Of a stretch of DNA of 64,000 bases, positions 57,093 to 60,608 are shown piece by piece. The notes under the pieces are model-generated. The model saw nothing but the letters and a program-made list of their open reading frames with translations, searched no databases and was not told where the DNA came from. Source of the stretch: Christiangramia gaetbulicola (GTDB lineage: Bacteria > Bacteroidota > Bacteroidia > Flavobacteriales > Flavobacteriaceae); assembly GCF_003054225.1 (NCBI RefSeq), contig NZ_QBKQ01000001.1:310001-374000 (forward strand), written 5' to 3'. The translations under genes and the position numbers were made by a program. Each line of letters starts with the position of its first letter. Within the stretch, counting starts at the first letter, position 1.

Positions 57093-58208
57093 ATGAAAAG
57101 AACTTTAGTAAGATATAGGAATACAGCATTTGGAAGGTTTGTTTTTCGCCATCAAAAGTACGCTCCCATTCTATTTTTTATGGGTGGTTTCATCTTTGAT
57201 ACCCTGACCTTAGGGCGAATAGATCGTGTTTATGATACAGTGGTACTTTGCTCGCATATGACCTTATTATCCATAACGCTTTATTTATTTAATACCGTGG
57301 ATGAAGACAAGTGGGAGGGTACTTTTATCGAACGTTATTCCGAATATTTACCCCTAGCCATACAGTTCTTCTTTGGCGCACTTTCAAGTGCTTTTGTCAT
57401 CTATTTTTTCAGAAGTGTGTCCATGTCTAAAACCATGTTTTTTTTCATACTGCTGGTGCTGCTCTTATTTGCGAACGAGTTTCTGAAAAAGAAGATCTCC
57501 AACAAATACCTTCAGTTCAGTGTTTATTTTTTTATCAGTTTTACCTTTTTCGCCTTTATTATTCCCACGCTGATCAAGGAAATGAATACCTTTATTTTTA
57601 TCATTTCGGGGCTTATAAGTTTGGGGTTCACGCTAGCTCTCATCATGTTTATTTACAGTTCAAGTCCAGGCACAAGAGCGGAGATAAGTCTGAAAAAACT
57701 GATCGGTCTTATTCTTTCCATCTATATAGCGATCAATGTTTTTTACTATTTCAATCTTATTCCGCCAGTGCCGCTGGCTATGGATACCGGGCTGGTGGCT
57801 CATGATGTGCGAAAAATAAATAACGAATACATCGTTACTTACGAGAAGAATCCATGGTATATATTCTGGCGTAAACATGACACCAATTTTCATCTCCAGG
57901 CAGGTGAAAGGGTTTATGTGTTCACTTCTGTTTTTGCACCAACAGCTTTAAAAAAGTCCATTTTTCACAGGTGGAAATGGTACAATCCTAAAACCAGAAA
58001 ATGGGAAGTTACCGATGACATTGATTTTGAAGTTGCCGGTGGGCGTGATCGTGGTTTCCGCGGGTATACCTTTAAAAATAATCTTAAGGAAGGCCAGTGG
58101 AAAGTTGAAGTAATTACAGAAGAGGAACTAATACTTGGGATTGTGGATTTTGAGATCAAAAACACTGCTGAACCTCATAAAGCAGGAATGGTAAAGAAAA
58201 CATTTTAA
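57093..58208 (+). CDS. DUF2914 membrane protein
   Basis: 371 residues. Seven or so transmembrane helices occupy about 25-230. The C-terminal periplasmic or cytoplasmic domain (about 240-371) is a beta-rich DUF2914 module with HRWKWYNPKTRKW, FEVAGGRDRGFRGYTFKNN and GQWKVEVITEEE. The domain combination is common in Gram-negative bacteria and remains functionally uncharacterised. No partner gene in the neighbourhood; it marks the edge of the AT-rich accessory segment. Confidence 0.86.
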   Translation: MKRTLVRYRNTAFGRFVFRHQKYAPILFFMGGFIFDTLTLGRIDRVYDTVVLCSHMTLLSITLYLFNTVDEDKWEGTFIERYSEYLPLAIQFFFGALSSAFVIYFFRSVSMSKTMFFFILLVLLLFANEFLKKKISNKYLQFSVYFFISFTFFAFIIPTLIKEMNTFIFIISGLISLGFTLALIMFIYSSSPGTRAEISLKKLIGLILSIYIAINVFYYFNLIPPVPLAMDTGLVAHDVRKINNEYIVTYEKNPWYIFWRKHDTNFHLQAGERVYVFTSVFAPTALKKSIFHRWKWYNPKTRKWEVTDDIDFEVAGGRDRGFRGYTFKNNLKEGQWKVEVITEEELILGIVDFEIKNTAEPHKAGMVKKTF

Positions 58209-58292
58209 TGCCAGTTTAAAGCGGGATTTTGTAAGGAGGGGGCAGACATTATTATTTAAATAAGCGATTTCATAAAATTATTATTCGAGCTT

Positions 58293-59147
58293 TTAATAGT
58301 CCTTTTTTTCAGGAATAACTCCTCTAACCCCGCCTCGAGGATTCTTAACATCATTATCATACCGAGGAATTATATGAATATGGCAGTGATCTACCGTTTG
58401 ACCTGCAGATTTATTGATATTTATTCCGACATTAAATCCTGATGGAGAAAGATCAATAACCAAATCTTCTTTGACCAAATTTACCAAATACCAGCAAGCA
58501 GACTGTTCTTGAAAACTCAACTCAAAGTAACTGGAAACCTTTCTTTTAGGAATAATTAGGGTATGACCATTCGAAACCGGAAATTTATCCTCTATGGCAA
58601 AAACCGTGGCTAGTTCCCCTCTTTGTTTTTTATTCTCGTTGTCAGAGAAAAAAGGCGAAATATTTTCATCTCCTATATGTAAAAACACATAATGTTGATA
58701 TTCATAAATCTCTACGAACTCATTTTCAAATAATGATTCAAATGGAAGTATTACATTACACTGGTAGGTTTCCTTTTTGTGAATTTTATGCATTCTAAAG
58801 CCTGGTCGGTCTATATCACGACGTACAGCAAAATACGCTGTGCCTCCAAATTTCAGCAACTTTGAAATGTCATTGATGACTTTAGCTTGATCCTGAGGCA
58901 AAAGGACATTCAGAACGTAAAAGCATATTATAGTGTCAAACTTGCTATTAGGATAGCTGTTGAAATAAAATGGATCGTAGCCTACAATATCTACATTCTG
59001 TTTTTTAAGAACTTCAACATCTTTACCAAAACCACAACCAAAATCTAATACCTGTCCTTTAAAAAGCCCTTTTTCTTTGAGTATTTTTCCTGGAAAAGAG
59101 ATGGTGTCTCTTTCTTTTGCCGTACAATGACTAAAGGAATTTTTCAT
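58293..59147 (-). CDS. Fusion of class I SAM methyltransferase and HIT-family domain
   Basis: 284 residues. Residues 1-150 form a SAM-dependent methyltransferase: VLDFGCGFGKD (33-43, motif I), GYDP (56-59) and YVLNVL (77-82). From memory this pattern resembles the methyltransferases annotated as DNA-phosphorothioation-associated. Residues about 178-284 form a histidine-triad (HIT) domain: NGHTLIIPKR (193-202), GFNVGININKSAGQ (237-250) and the triad HCHIHII (254-260), His256 being the expected nucleophile. HIT enzymes cleave or transfer nucleoside phosphates. The start codon overlaps the HNH gene stop by ATGA, so the two are translationally coupled. Substrates unknown. Confidence 0.88.
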   Translation of the reverse strand: MKNSFSHCTAKERDTISFPGKILKEKGLFKGQVLDFGCGFGKDVEVLKKQNVDIVGYDPFYFNSYPNSKFDTIICFYVLNVLLPQDQAKVINDISKLLKFGGTAYFAVRRDIDRPGFRMHKIHKKETYQCNVILPFESLFENEFVEIYEYQHYVFLHIGDENISPFFSDNENKKQRGELATVFAIEDKFPVSNGHTLIIPKRKVSSYFELSFQEQSACWYLVNLVKEDLVIDLSPSGFNVGININKSAGQTVDHCHIHIIPRYDNDVKNPRGGVRGVIPEKKDY

Positions 59148-60208
59148 TGTTCTAAAAAATCAAAGCCATTATTGTGGGCGGTTGTGACTAATGGTGACAA
59201 TGTGTCGAAAAACCTTTCCTGTGTAAAATCTTCTTCCGTCTTTAATCTGGGAAATATTGTGTGGTATTCCTCTTCAAATTTTTTGTTTGGTTTGAGTCTC
59301 CTAATACTGAAAAAGGCATCCTTTTGATAATCGAAAAAACGTTGAAAATACAATTCGAGATTAGGTAGTTTACTATTTTTTGAAGAATTAAAATTTGGAT
59401 CAACGGGTATTAGATTCCAAATTAAATCATGAGAAACAAATGCATATGGTATAAAATGATCAAGAGAATAATTATCAGGATCAATCAAATTTCCAGTGAA
59501 AATACAGCGCACATCTTTTTTCTGCCTGATATAAATTGTCCAAAAATTATTTCGCTGTCGAGTTAAAGAATTTCGTTTTGCCGGTTTAATTAGCTTGTTT
59601 GGAATATCAGGAACATTTGGATTTCTTACTTGTAAGAATATTGAAAGGTTCCAATAGCAGAAATCCTTTAATAGCTTTGCATGAACTTGAAAATAATCAA
59701 ACCAATCCTCATCTATGATGATTTTATGATCGTATAGTGCATAGGGTGGTTTATTTCTAAATTCCTGAGACGAAAGATAAATTACTTCTTTCTTTTTTTC
59801 TTTATACCATGGACTAAGAAACCAATGTGGAACATTCTTATCGAAATGATATAGCTTTCTTTGAACCTCTTTTGATTGTGAGGTTTTTAATTTTGTTTCT
59901 ATTTCGGTTTTCGAAAATGTTATAGGGAGATTTTCTCTTCTCTGAACGAAATTAATAGTGGACTGAATTTTATCCTGGCTACCAAATGATAATTTGAAAT
60001 AATTCACAGTATACCATGGAATAGAGATCATTTTGGCAAATAGATCAATCTTATCAACTTCACTCTTACCTTTTTCGACACAATCGAGAATTCCTAAAAA
60101 CCAATAAAACTTGTAGGTCGCAGACGTATTATTAAATATCTGGGCCAACTTTTGTATCTCAAGACCTTTATACATTGGTAACGCGTGGAGACCTATTGGC
60201 TTTCTCAT
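59144..60208 (-). CDS. HNH endonuclease domain protein
   Basis: 354 residues. The C-terminal part holds an HNH nuclease core: CIFTGNLIDPDN (235-246), DHFIPYAF (Asp250-His251), DLIWNLIPVDPN (Asn265) and NSSKNSK (Asn274, Lys277), an H-N-N version of the motif. The N-terminal ~220 residues include FNNTSATYKFYWFLGIL (25-41) and several Trp/Tyr-rich segments, an unassigned region likely to bind substrate or partner. No HTH, ATPase or methyltransferase is within it. The ATG at 60208 gives the longest frame; an internal ATG (codon 12) is possible. The methyltransferase-HIT gene follows in an ATGA overlap. The tRNA-Leu gene lies 228 bases upstream. Confidence 0.86.
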   Translation of the reverse strand: MRKPIGLHALPMYKGLEIQKLAQIFNNTSATYKFYWFLGILDCVEKGKSEVDKIDLFAKMISIPWYTVNYFKLSFGSQDKIQSTINFVQRRENLPITFSKTEIETKLKTSQSKEVQRKLYHFDKNVPHWFLSPWYKEKKKEVIYLSSQEFRNKPPYALYDHKIIIDEDWFDYFQVHAKLLKDFCYWNLSIFLQVRNPNVPDIPNKLIKPAKRNSLTRQRNNFWTIYIRQKKDVRCIFTGNLIDPDNYSLDHFIPYAFVSHDLIWNLIPVDPNFNSSKNSKLPNLELYFQRFFDYQKDAFFSIRRLKPNKKFEEEYHTIFPRLKTEEDFTQERFFDTLSPLVTTAHNNGFDFLEQ

Positions 60209-60393
60209 TTAAAATTAAAATTTGGCTGATTAAATGTAGGGAAGAAACAAAATCTTAAGATTTCTAATATAGGAAAATAATTCAAGCTACATAGAAATCC
60301 TTAAAAACTCCTAGGTTTAGAAGTTCGTTGAATTTCAAAATGGGTTGTAAGATTGCATTATTACGAAATGATATATGGATTAAAAATTAAGCA

Positions 60394-60432
60394 TAAAAAA
60401 AGCCTTGAAAATCAACAGATTAACAAGGCTTA
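60394..60432 (-). terminator. Intrinsic terminator after the tRNA pair
   Basis: Stem AAGCCTTG (60400-60407) / CAAGGCTT (60424-60431), T-tract on the minus strand. Confidence 0.85.
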
Positions 60433-60435
60433 AAG

Positions 60436-60520
60436 TACTCGGGACGGGACTTGAACCCGTACGACCATAATGGTCATTGGATTTTAAGTCCAACGTGTCT
60501 ACCAATTCCACCACCCGAGC
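60436..60520 (-). tRNA. tRNA-Leu (UAA anticodon)
   Basis: 85 bases on the minus strand with acceptor GCTCGGG/CCCGAGT, a long variable arm and TpsiC arm GGGTTCAAGTCCC. The anticodon loop CTTAAAA gives UAA. Discriminator A at 60436. No CCA is encoded. Part of a two-tRNA transcript with tRNA-Gly. Confidence 0.95.
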
Positions 60521-60535
60521 GTGGTATTTTATATG

Positions 60536-60608
60536 AGCGAAAAACGGGATTCGAACCCGCGACCTCCACCTTGGCAAGGTGGCGCTCTACCAACTGAGCT
60601 ATTTTCGC
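60536..60608 (-). tRNA. tRNA-Gly (GCC anticodon)
   Basis: 73 bases on the minus strand. Acceptor GCGAAAA/TTTTCGC, D-arm with AGCTCAGTTGGTAGAGC, anticodon loop TTGCCAA (GCC), TpsiC arm GGGTTCGAATCCC. 15 bases separate it from tRNA-Leu, so they are cotranscribed, tRNA-Gly first. Confidence 0.95.

Follow-up and report, generated by a model that had tools for sequence, protein, structure and literature searches.

What could be the function of two overlapping, AT-rich genes that stand next to a tRNA-Leu gene, one encoding an HNH nuclease and the other a methyltransferase fused to a histidine-triad (HIT) domain (MT-HIT)? The pair occupies positions 58293-60208 on the minus strand of the window, by which we mean the complete stretch of 64,000 nucleotides of Christiangramia gaetbulicola that was analysed. 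A first-pass annotation had proposed that the two genes form a candidate undescribed module for defence or nucleic-acid processing. We therefore collected the following kinds of information: i) the domains and structural models of both proteins; ii) the distribution of the genes within the genus and beyond; and iii) the genes that share genome context with their relatives.

The two genes and the site they occupy

The stop codon of the nuclease gene (59146-59144) overlaps the start codon of the MT-HIT gene (59147-59145), and a gap of 226 bp separates the start of the nuclease gene from tRNA-Leu. The G+C content of the two genes (31.9% and 34.5%) is low compared to that of the whole window (40.0%), and the same holds for the third codon position (0.28 in both genes vs 0.33-0.50 in 11 other window genes). 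The description of an AT-rich pair that overlaps by ATGA beside tRNA-Leu is thus borne out by reading frames, coordinates and base composition. Neither a terminator-like site nor an informative promoter was found at the locus. The features are collected in Table 1.

Table 1. Features of the two-gene locus and its surroundings (positions are counted from the first letter of the window)
Feature	Position	Strand	Basis or remark
HNH endonuclease gene, lineage HNH-A	59144..60208	-	354 aa ORF
N-terminal region of HNH protein, residues 1-215, mostly helical, TYKF motif; candidate recognition module	59564..60208	-	AF2 model
HNH_4 core, residues 235-282	59363..59506	-	Pfam 34.6 bits, cut-off 22
Methyltransferase-HIT fusion gene (MT-HIT)	58293..59147	-	284 aa ORF
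Class I methyltransferase part, residues 1-158	58674..59147	-	related to TIGR04096 dnd_rel_methyl, below cut-off
HIT domain, residues 178-264	58356..58616	-	Pfam PF01230, 69.6 bits, cut-off 21.5
ATGA stop/start overlap, HNH / MT-HIT	59144..59147	-	read from sequence
tRNA-Leu (taa)	60435..60520	-	
tRNA-Gly	60535-60608	-	
Variable slot, DUF2914 gene to tRNA-Leu	58209..60434	.	
DUF2914 gene, bounding the slot on the left	57093..58208	+	Pfam; carried by 15/24 genomes of the genus

The nuclease belongs to HNH_4 (PF13395) by profile match as well as by its core histidine (H251, codon 59456-59458), which is kept in all 25 aligned HNH-A rows, and its identity as an HNH endonuclease is therewith confirmed. 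Its best sequence matches in the PDB are the HNH domains of Cas9. The PADLOC models gave nothing convincing (a weak Cas9 match only, and no match to the SspE models), and Pfam detected no RuvC, SRA, HTH or modified-base reader domain in the protein. An AF2 model was obtained (pLDDT 86.2, pTM 0.59), including the N-terminal region for which a structure prediction had been suggested; it matched no PDB fold and, in a Foldseek search, no viral structure at E 0.001. The N-terminal region itself, of about 220 residues, had been called unique, and this turned out not to be the case: a whole family is defined by this region, and two ResIII-type helicases encoded on viral contigs (L257:3391-7194 and L258:3571-7167) contain a relative within their C-terminal third; Pfam sees no HNH domain in these helicases. 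The occurrence in helicases would fit a part that recognizes nucleic acids. The profile alignment between HNH-A and a second lineage, HNH-B, is limited to the HNH and C-terminal part, and a TYKF motif occurs near the N-terminus in the types A to D (one or two examples per type).

The fusion of a SAM methyltransferase with an intact histidine-triad domain was confirmed by Pfam and by the HxHxH motif. The methyltransferase part is matched by Methyltransf_23 (residues 30-109, 45.6 bits, cut-off 27), and its matches are confined to generic class I methyltransferase models and TIGR04096 (dnd_rel_methyl), to which family it does not belong by score (51.1 bits, cut-off 150). The part of about 158 aa contains no detectable target-recognition domain and lacks the combination of methylase motifs and such a domain that characterizes the DNA methylase of a type II restriction-modification (R-M) system. 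The HIT part satisfies the definition of the PF01230 superfamily by its fold and by its intact triad (H254/H256/H258, with the H256 codon at 58380-58382). The AF2 model of the fusion protein has a pLDDT of 89.4, and a structure search matched the fold of the HIT part to Fhit and Ap4A phosphorylase.

Both genes are distributed patchily, a point that the first-pass annotation had proposed to check. The HNH gene was found in one of the 24 genomes of the genus (two of the others being less than 75% complete) and MT-HIT in none of the 13 congeners tested. Four of the 13 congener stretches span the complete slot from the DUF2914 gene to tRNA-Leu, and its content was: nothing (G008, about 430 bp), a type II R-M system with Vsr and a HEC-06-like gene (G013), an McrB-like gene paired with a DUF2357/PD-(D/E)XK gene (G001, McrB confirmed), or a gene insert of about 6.5 kb (G010). 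Two congeners thus carry restriction genes at the position of the pair. A 30-base piece over the 3' end of tRNA-Leu recurs, with 29/30 bases identical, where the G010 insert ends on the other side. An attachment repeat of this kind was rejected for the window copy (best match 18/30), and an integrase that had been read by eye in the G010 insert was withdrawn for lack of a match to PF00589 or to any PDB chain; the 8 PF00589 matches of G010 all lie outside the slot insert.

Association of the nuclease with the HIT-containing protein

A scan that was seeded with the window MT-HIT protein recovered 52 loci, 49 of which (L005-L053) entered the neighbour counts; the other three (L054-L056) are partial or HIT-only matches. 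In 41 of the 49 loci the reading frame immediately upstream, on the same strand, encodes an HNH protein from a single sequence cluster, so that the pairing is not due to chance, and 32 of these 41 frames overlap MT-HIT if every ORF is given its maximal length. The eight exceptions comprise a locus with a different nuclease type (L008, HNH-C, HNH_4 18.9 bits, below cut-off), one with just a fragment of the HNH-C type beside MT-HIT (L006), one with a divergent HNH gene (L053), one with a truncated MT-HIT and no HNH gene (L043) and four cyanobacterial loci. Since the seed came from the window, an even sample of the phylum was used as well: full-length MT-HIT is present in 17 of 395 sampled Bacteroidota genomes (window genome included), and in each of the 17 it has an HNH-nuclease gene beside it. 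An HNH-A profile match adjoins MT-HIT in 15 of them; the other two carry an HNH_2 nuclease (G337) and a methyltransferase-HNH fusion (G250). The MT-HIT frame has an internal stop in two of the 17 (G245 and G250). The recurrence of the pair in other genomes, which had been proposed as a check, is thus supported by both collections. A class I methyltransferase domain was also seen at the N-terminus of two HNH_4 nucleases (L158:5374-7143 and L160:6663-8327), the latter beside MT-HIT.

The HIT domain is found next to HNH genes in various arrangements. It occurs without a methyltransferase beside HNH genes in nine loci (L002, L061, L063, L064, L065, L164, L166, L168 and L170), beside an HNH_2 nuclease in L163 and fused to HNH in a single protein of 331 aa in L165; among 13 standalone HIT matches with loci (L085-L097) at least six have an HNH partner or fusion. 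We then mapped the nuclease types onto a phylogeny of 89 MT-HIT proteins (built by a quick method, with SH-aLRT as the only support measure). The protein of the window genome (L076), a duplicate of L039 (L182) and rows below 230 aa had been removed from it, and L006 and L008 carry a manually assigned HNH-C label. The label changes between HNH-A and HNH-B nine times, and the starred branches force at least seven changes per label. A clean exchange of the nuclease in place is observed between two Algoriphagus loci (L023 and L024), which match by 85% up to HNH and by 76% from MT-HIT onwards, the HNH DNA being unmatched. Another pair of loci (L022 and L035) matches only from MT-HIT through the Wadjet genes (78%). 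A third pair (L013 and L010) matches in both flanks and differs in HNH type; its reading as an exchange in place is weakened by some 7 kb that L010 has in addition between flank and HNH.

A methylase that protects specific sequences would be expected to change together with its nuclease, in contrast to the constant MT-HIT beside which the nuclease is replaced. The suggestion that the methyltransferase marks self DNA in the manner of an R-M system finds no support in view of this, of the undetected target-recognition domain and of the HIT-only versions. Classical R-M as such is rejected likewise: neither a recognition domain nor a DNA-methylase signature was found, and the methyltransferase is dispensable.

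MT-HIT was also found in cyanobacteria, where 27 of 244 genomes within the phylum carry it. The neighbours at 24 cyanobacterial loci (23 genomes) are varied and gave no match when HNH-A and HNH-B were sought. Three whole cyanobacterial genomes gave no match either, and the match in a fourth stemmed from a non-HNH row (L048) in the alignment used (A2), which was replaced by A3. Occurrence in all relatives amid housekeeping neighbours, which would have spoken against a defence role, is not seen for the pair and is seen in part for MT-HIT alone, at the cyanobacterial loci examined. Among the cyanobacterial MT-HIT genes (L180-L206 and L207-L226), the HIT nucleophile is changed to Ser, Ala, Asn, Thr or Leu at 21 of the 27 loci from L180 to L206, with the methyltransferase being kept. 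MT-HIT probably has a role outside the pair that is exerted via its methyltransferase. Of the HNH-paired rows 55 of 59 have kept the central histidine, vs 8 of 30 unpaired rows (54/58 and 9/31 before L081, labelled 'none' in the tree, was counted as paired on account of its HNH_2 gene), a contrast that corresponds to 5 changes on the tree and 3 independent pairs and is not significant. The histidine is not intact in 4 of the 59 paired rows (one of which is cut before the motif) and replaced in 22 of the 30 unpaired rows; the cyanobacterial changes fall mainly in one clade, so that the contrast is no more than suggestive. The proposal that HIT catalysis is kept only together with HNH is weakened accordingly.

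Defence neighbours and the link with phosphorothioation

It had also been proposed to look for known defence genes near the pair. Such genes were seen beside some relatives (Wadjet, mREase_IV and SSP genes) and not in the window, where no adjoining defence gene was recognised: none of the 48 other ORFs (120-1300 aa) matched PADLOC at 1e-20, Wadjet JetABCD included. Examples among the relatives are JetA1/B1/C1 of Wadjet downstream (L022), mREase_IV (L021) and PDC-S36 (L005). To obtain an overview, 131 of 143 immediate neighbour ORFs were compared with PADLOC at 1e-20, with matches being counted per family and not per distinct protein; the 12 ORFs outside the tally include an SspC gene and the HNH-C partner of L008. 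Among the matches listed (25 of 75 families) were: JetA (3), PbeA (3), JetB (2), mREase_IV (2), PDC-S36 (2) and PDC-S07 (2), and with a single match each AbiEii, SspD, SoFic, HEC-01A, PDC-S41 and PDC-M11A. The neighbours of cyanobacterial MT-HIT, taken as a control (76 ORFs), matched 35 PADLOC families, and each of the 25 families listed (among them GajB, RTasHel, Cas12f, other Cas12, NsnA, Csx1 and PD-T4-2_A) had a single member. In two loci (L046:2199-7632 and L047) a set of three genes, one of which encodes a DUF3584 (SMC-like) protein, is found immediately downstream of HNH and MT-HIT; the set reads as Wadjet-like and has no PADLOC match at 1e-5.

A genomic tie connects the HNH-A nuclease family to the genes for DNA phosphorothioation, as carried by the SSP (SspABCD with SspE or another effector) and Dnd systems. 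In L051 (with two small ORFs in between) and L171 (with a short SspC of 673 aa), the pair is preceded on its upstream side by genes for SspB and SspC. Complete or partial SspB genes were also seen in L027, L031, L033, L036 and L038, and L034 has a relative of SspD. HNH-A was further found without a HIT or MT-HIT profile match in 16 loci (12 plasmid and 4 genome stretches; the 17 plasmid records with HNH-A also include three further pSYSM copies and two partial matches, which were left out). Eight of these 16 contain SSP or Dnd genes (L057, L058, L059, L156, L157, L227, L231 and L233; L227 having no more than a cysteine desulfurase and a relative of the methyltransferase), and the other eight have no SSP or Dnd gene within the stretch examined. 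The window genome differs in this respect, and the pair stands apart there. Phosphorothioation based on SspB or DndC was rejected for this genome, which matched neither the one SspB model used (PDLC02760; 4 of 8 genomes matched) nor the one DndC model (PDLC02662; 1 of 4 genomes matched, G137). A search for DUF4007 was silent in the window genome, as it was in its control genomes.

The comparison with described systems yields partial likenesses in each case. As an HNH_4 protein without a match to SspE, the window nuclease differs from the SSP effector. The methyltransferase part is matched by the N-terminal 82 positions of TIGR04096 (DNA phosphorothioation-associated putative methyltransferase), and a protein annotated as such lies with HNH-A on pSYSM, with a relative on a plasmid of Synechococcus sp. 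NIES-970; the window protein differs by its fusion to HIT and by its length (284 aa vs a model of 478 positions), besides its low score. HNH nucleases in combination with wHTH and SAD/SRA domains have been proposed as alternative restriction components in Dnd neighbourhoods (PMC10853773), which resembles the position of the HNH-A relatives beside phosphorothioation genes; the window protein has no SRA or HTH domain by Pfam, and the terms 'HIT' and 'histidine triad' are absent from the main text of that paper. The likeness to Cas9 is restricted to the HNH_4 core, since the window protein has a different N-terminus, no RuvC match and no full-length fold match at E 0.001.

HIT enzymes form a universal superfamily, and to our knowledge they have no established role in DNA defence. 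The sole printed link that we met is ThsC, a HIT protein that appears as an added gene in the defence locus of the type II Thoeris system of PADLOC (PMC8565338). The MT-HIT protein shares with it the position of an added HIT protein and differs by its ThsC match of 23 bits and by its surroundings: neither a TIR domain (by Pfam) nor the combination of a ThsB TIR protein with ThsA was found in the pair and its three flanking genes. On a Mycolicibacterium plasmid (L066:5636-7143) a ThsB-type TIR protein gene does overlap the gene of a 340-aa HIT-domain protein. A description of the HNH and MT-HIT pair itself was not found among open-licence papers.

A proposed modular cassette and the alternatives to it

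We consider it somewhat better than an even bet (about 0.55) that the pair is a mobile two-gene module directed against invaders, presumably phages, with an HNH effector and a constant HIT partner. Taken together, the locus is most likely a modular cassette, with an apparent role in defence, in which an exchangeable nuclease is coupled to a constant HIT-containing protein. The HNH protein would act as the effector and cut its substrate, presumably DNA, with the HNH core, while the exchangeable N-terminal region probably picks the targets by sequence, modification or structure. The HIT enzyme would be the constant partner, for which we guess a nucleotidyl hydrolase or transferase chemistry; most likely it either makes the nuclease bearable for the host or processes the product or signal of the nuclease. 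The methyltransferase may be an optional part that became fused to HIT, akin to the methyltransferase that is found beside phosphorothioation systems. The initial reading as a defence or nucleic-acid module is in this way supported in part, by the pairing, the patchiness, the slot and the defence neighbours of some relatives, with the exception of an R-M style marker. A bolder version, which we put forward as speculative and on balance doubtful, holds that HNH-HIT forms an undescribed class of defence in which the nucleotidyl chemistry of HIT, and not base methylation or phosphorothioation, sets the tolerance of the host for an exchangeable HNH nuclease; at SSP-linked loci MT-HIT might then replace the sulfur-insertion enzymes, for instance by a sulfur-free change of DNA backbone or ends.

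Several other explanations were weighed against the modular cassette. The HNH protein might cut modified phage DNA in the manner of type IV restriction, with HIT and methyltransferase helping to process modified nucleotides and not protecting the host. The matches of mREase models among the neighbours, the HIT-only versions that lack any methyltransferase and the NUDIX-type genes near the pair in L065 (annotated) and in L016 and L021 (by eye) are in line with this, and we nevertheless regard it as rather unlikely given that Pfam finds no modified-base reader domain in the nuclease and that HNH-A is tied as well to phosphorothioation genes of the host itself. An addiction module, with HNH as a DNA-damaging toxin and MT-HIT or HIT as its enzymatic antidote, would account for the tight overlap of the genes, for the HIT-HNH pairs on plasmids and for the presence of the partner without HNH in cyanobacteria; the 16 HNH-A loci without a HIT neighbour and the several HNH types that are served by one MT-HIT family make it improbable.

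Aprataxin and Fhit remove nucleotidyl adducts, and the pair could similarly belong to nucleotide or DNA-repair metabolism, with HIT removing such adducts, HNH trimming the DNA and the defence neighbours being incidental. The fold match to Fhit and Ap4A phosphorylase and the cyanobacterial MT-HIT without HNH agree with a repair function, to which we give a small chance in view of the patchiness, the exchange of HNH and the defence genes both beside relatives and in the slot. That the nuclease is a selfish element of the homing or mobile type with passenger genes is very improbable: the HNH domain and the repeat of the tRNA-Leu end that bounds the G010 insert would suit it, whereas the repeat is absent at the window copy and the MT-HIT partner is constant. 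Should the modular cassette be correct, a recurring HIT partner shared by several interchangeable HNH types would suggest a novel mode of control over defence nucleases, and it could give a role to the methyltransferase beside phosphorothioation systems. As the pair measures just 1.9 kb, it is directly testable.

The idea of a module that is carried by phages was rejected, as the viral contigs yielded only parts of it: the methyltransferase part at 22 loci and the nuclease N-terminal region in the two helicases. At the former (L235-L256, several of them on contigs of more than 100 kb) the methyltransferase relative stands alone, without any HIT profile match, and it possibly serves the self-protection of the phage. 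A HIT protein was met in the Streptomyces phage phiSASD1 (L067:5036-6363), where gp4, which is 44% identical over 42% of the query, lies beside the AANH-like gp3.
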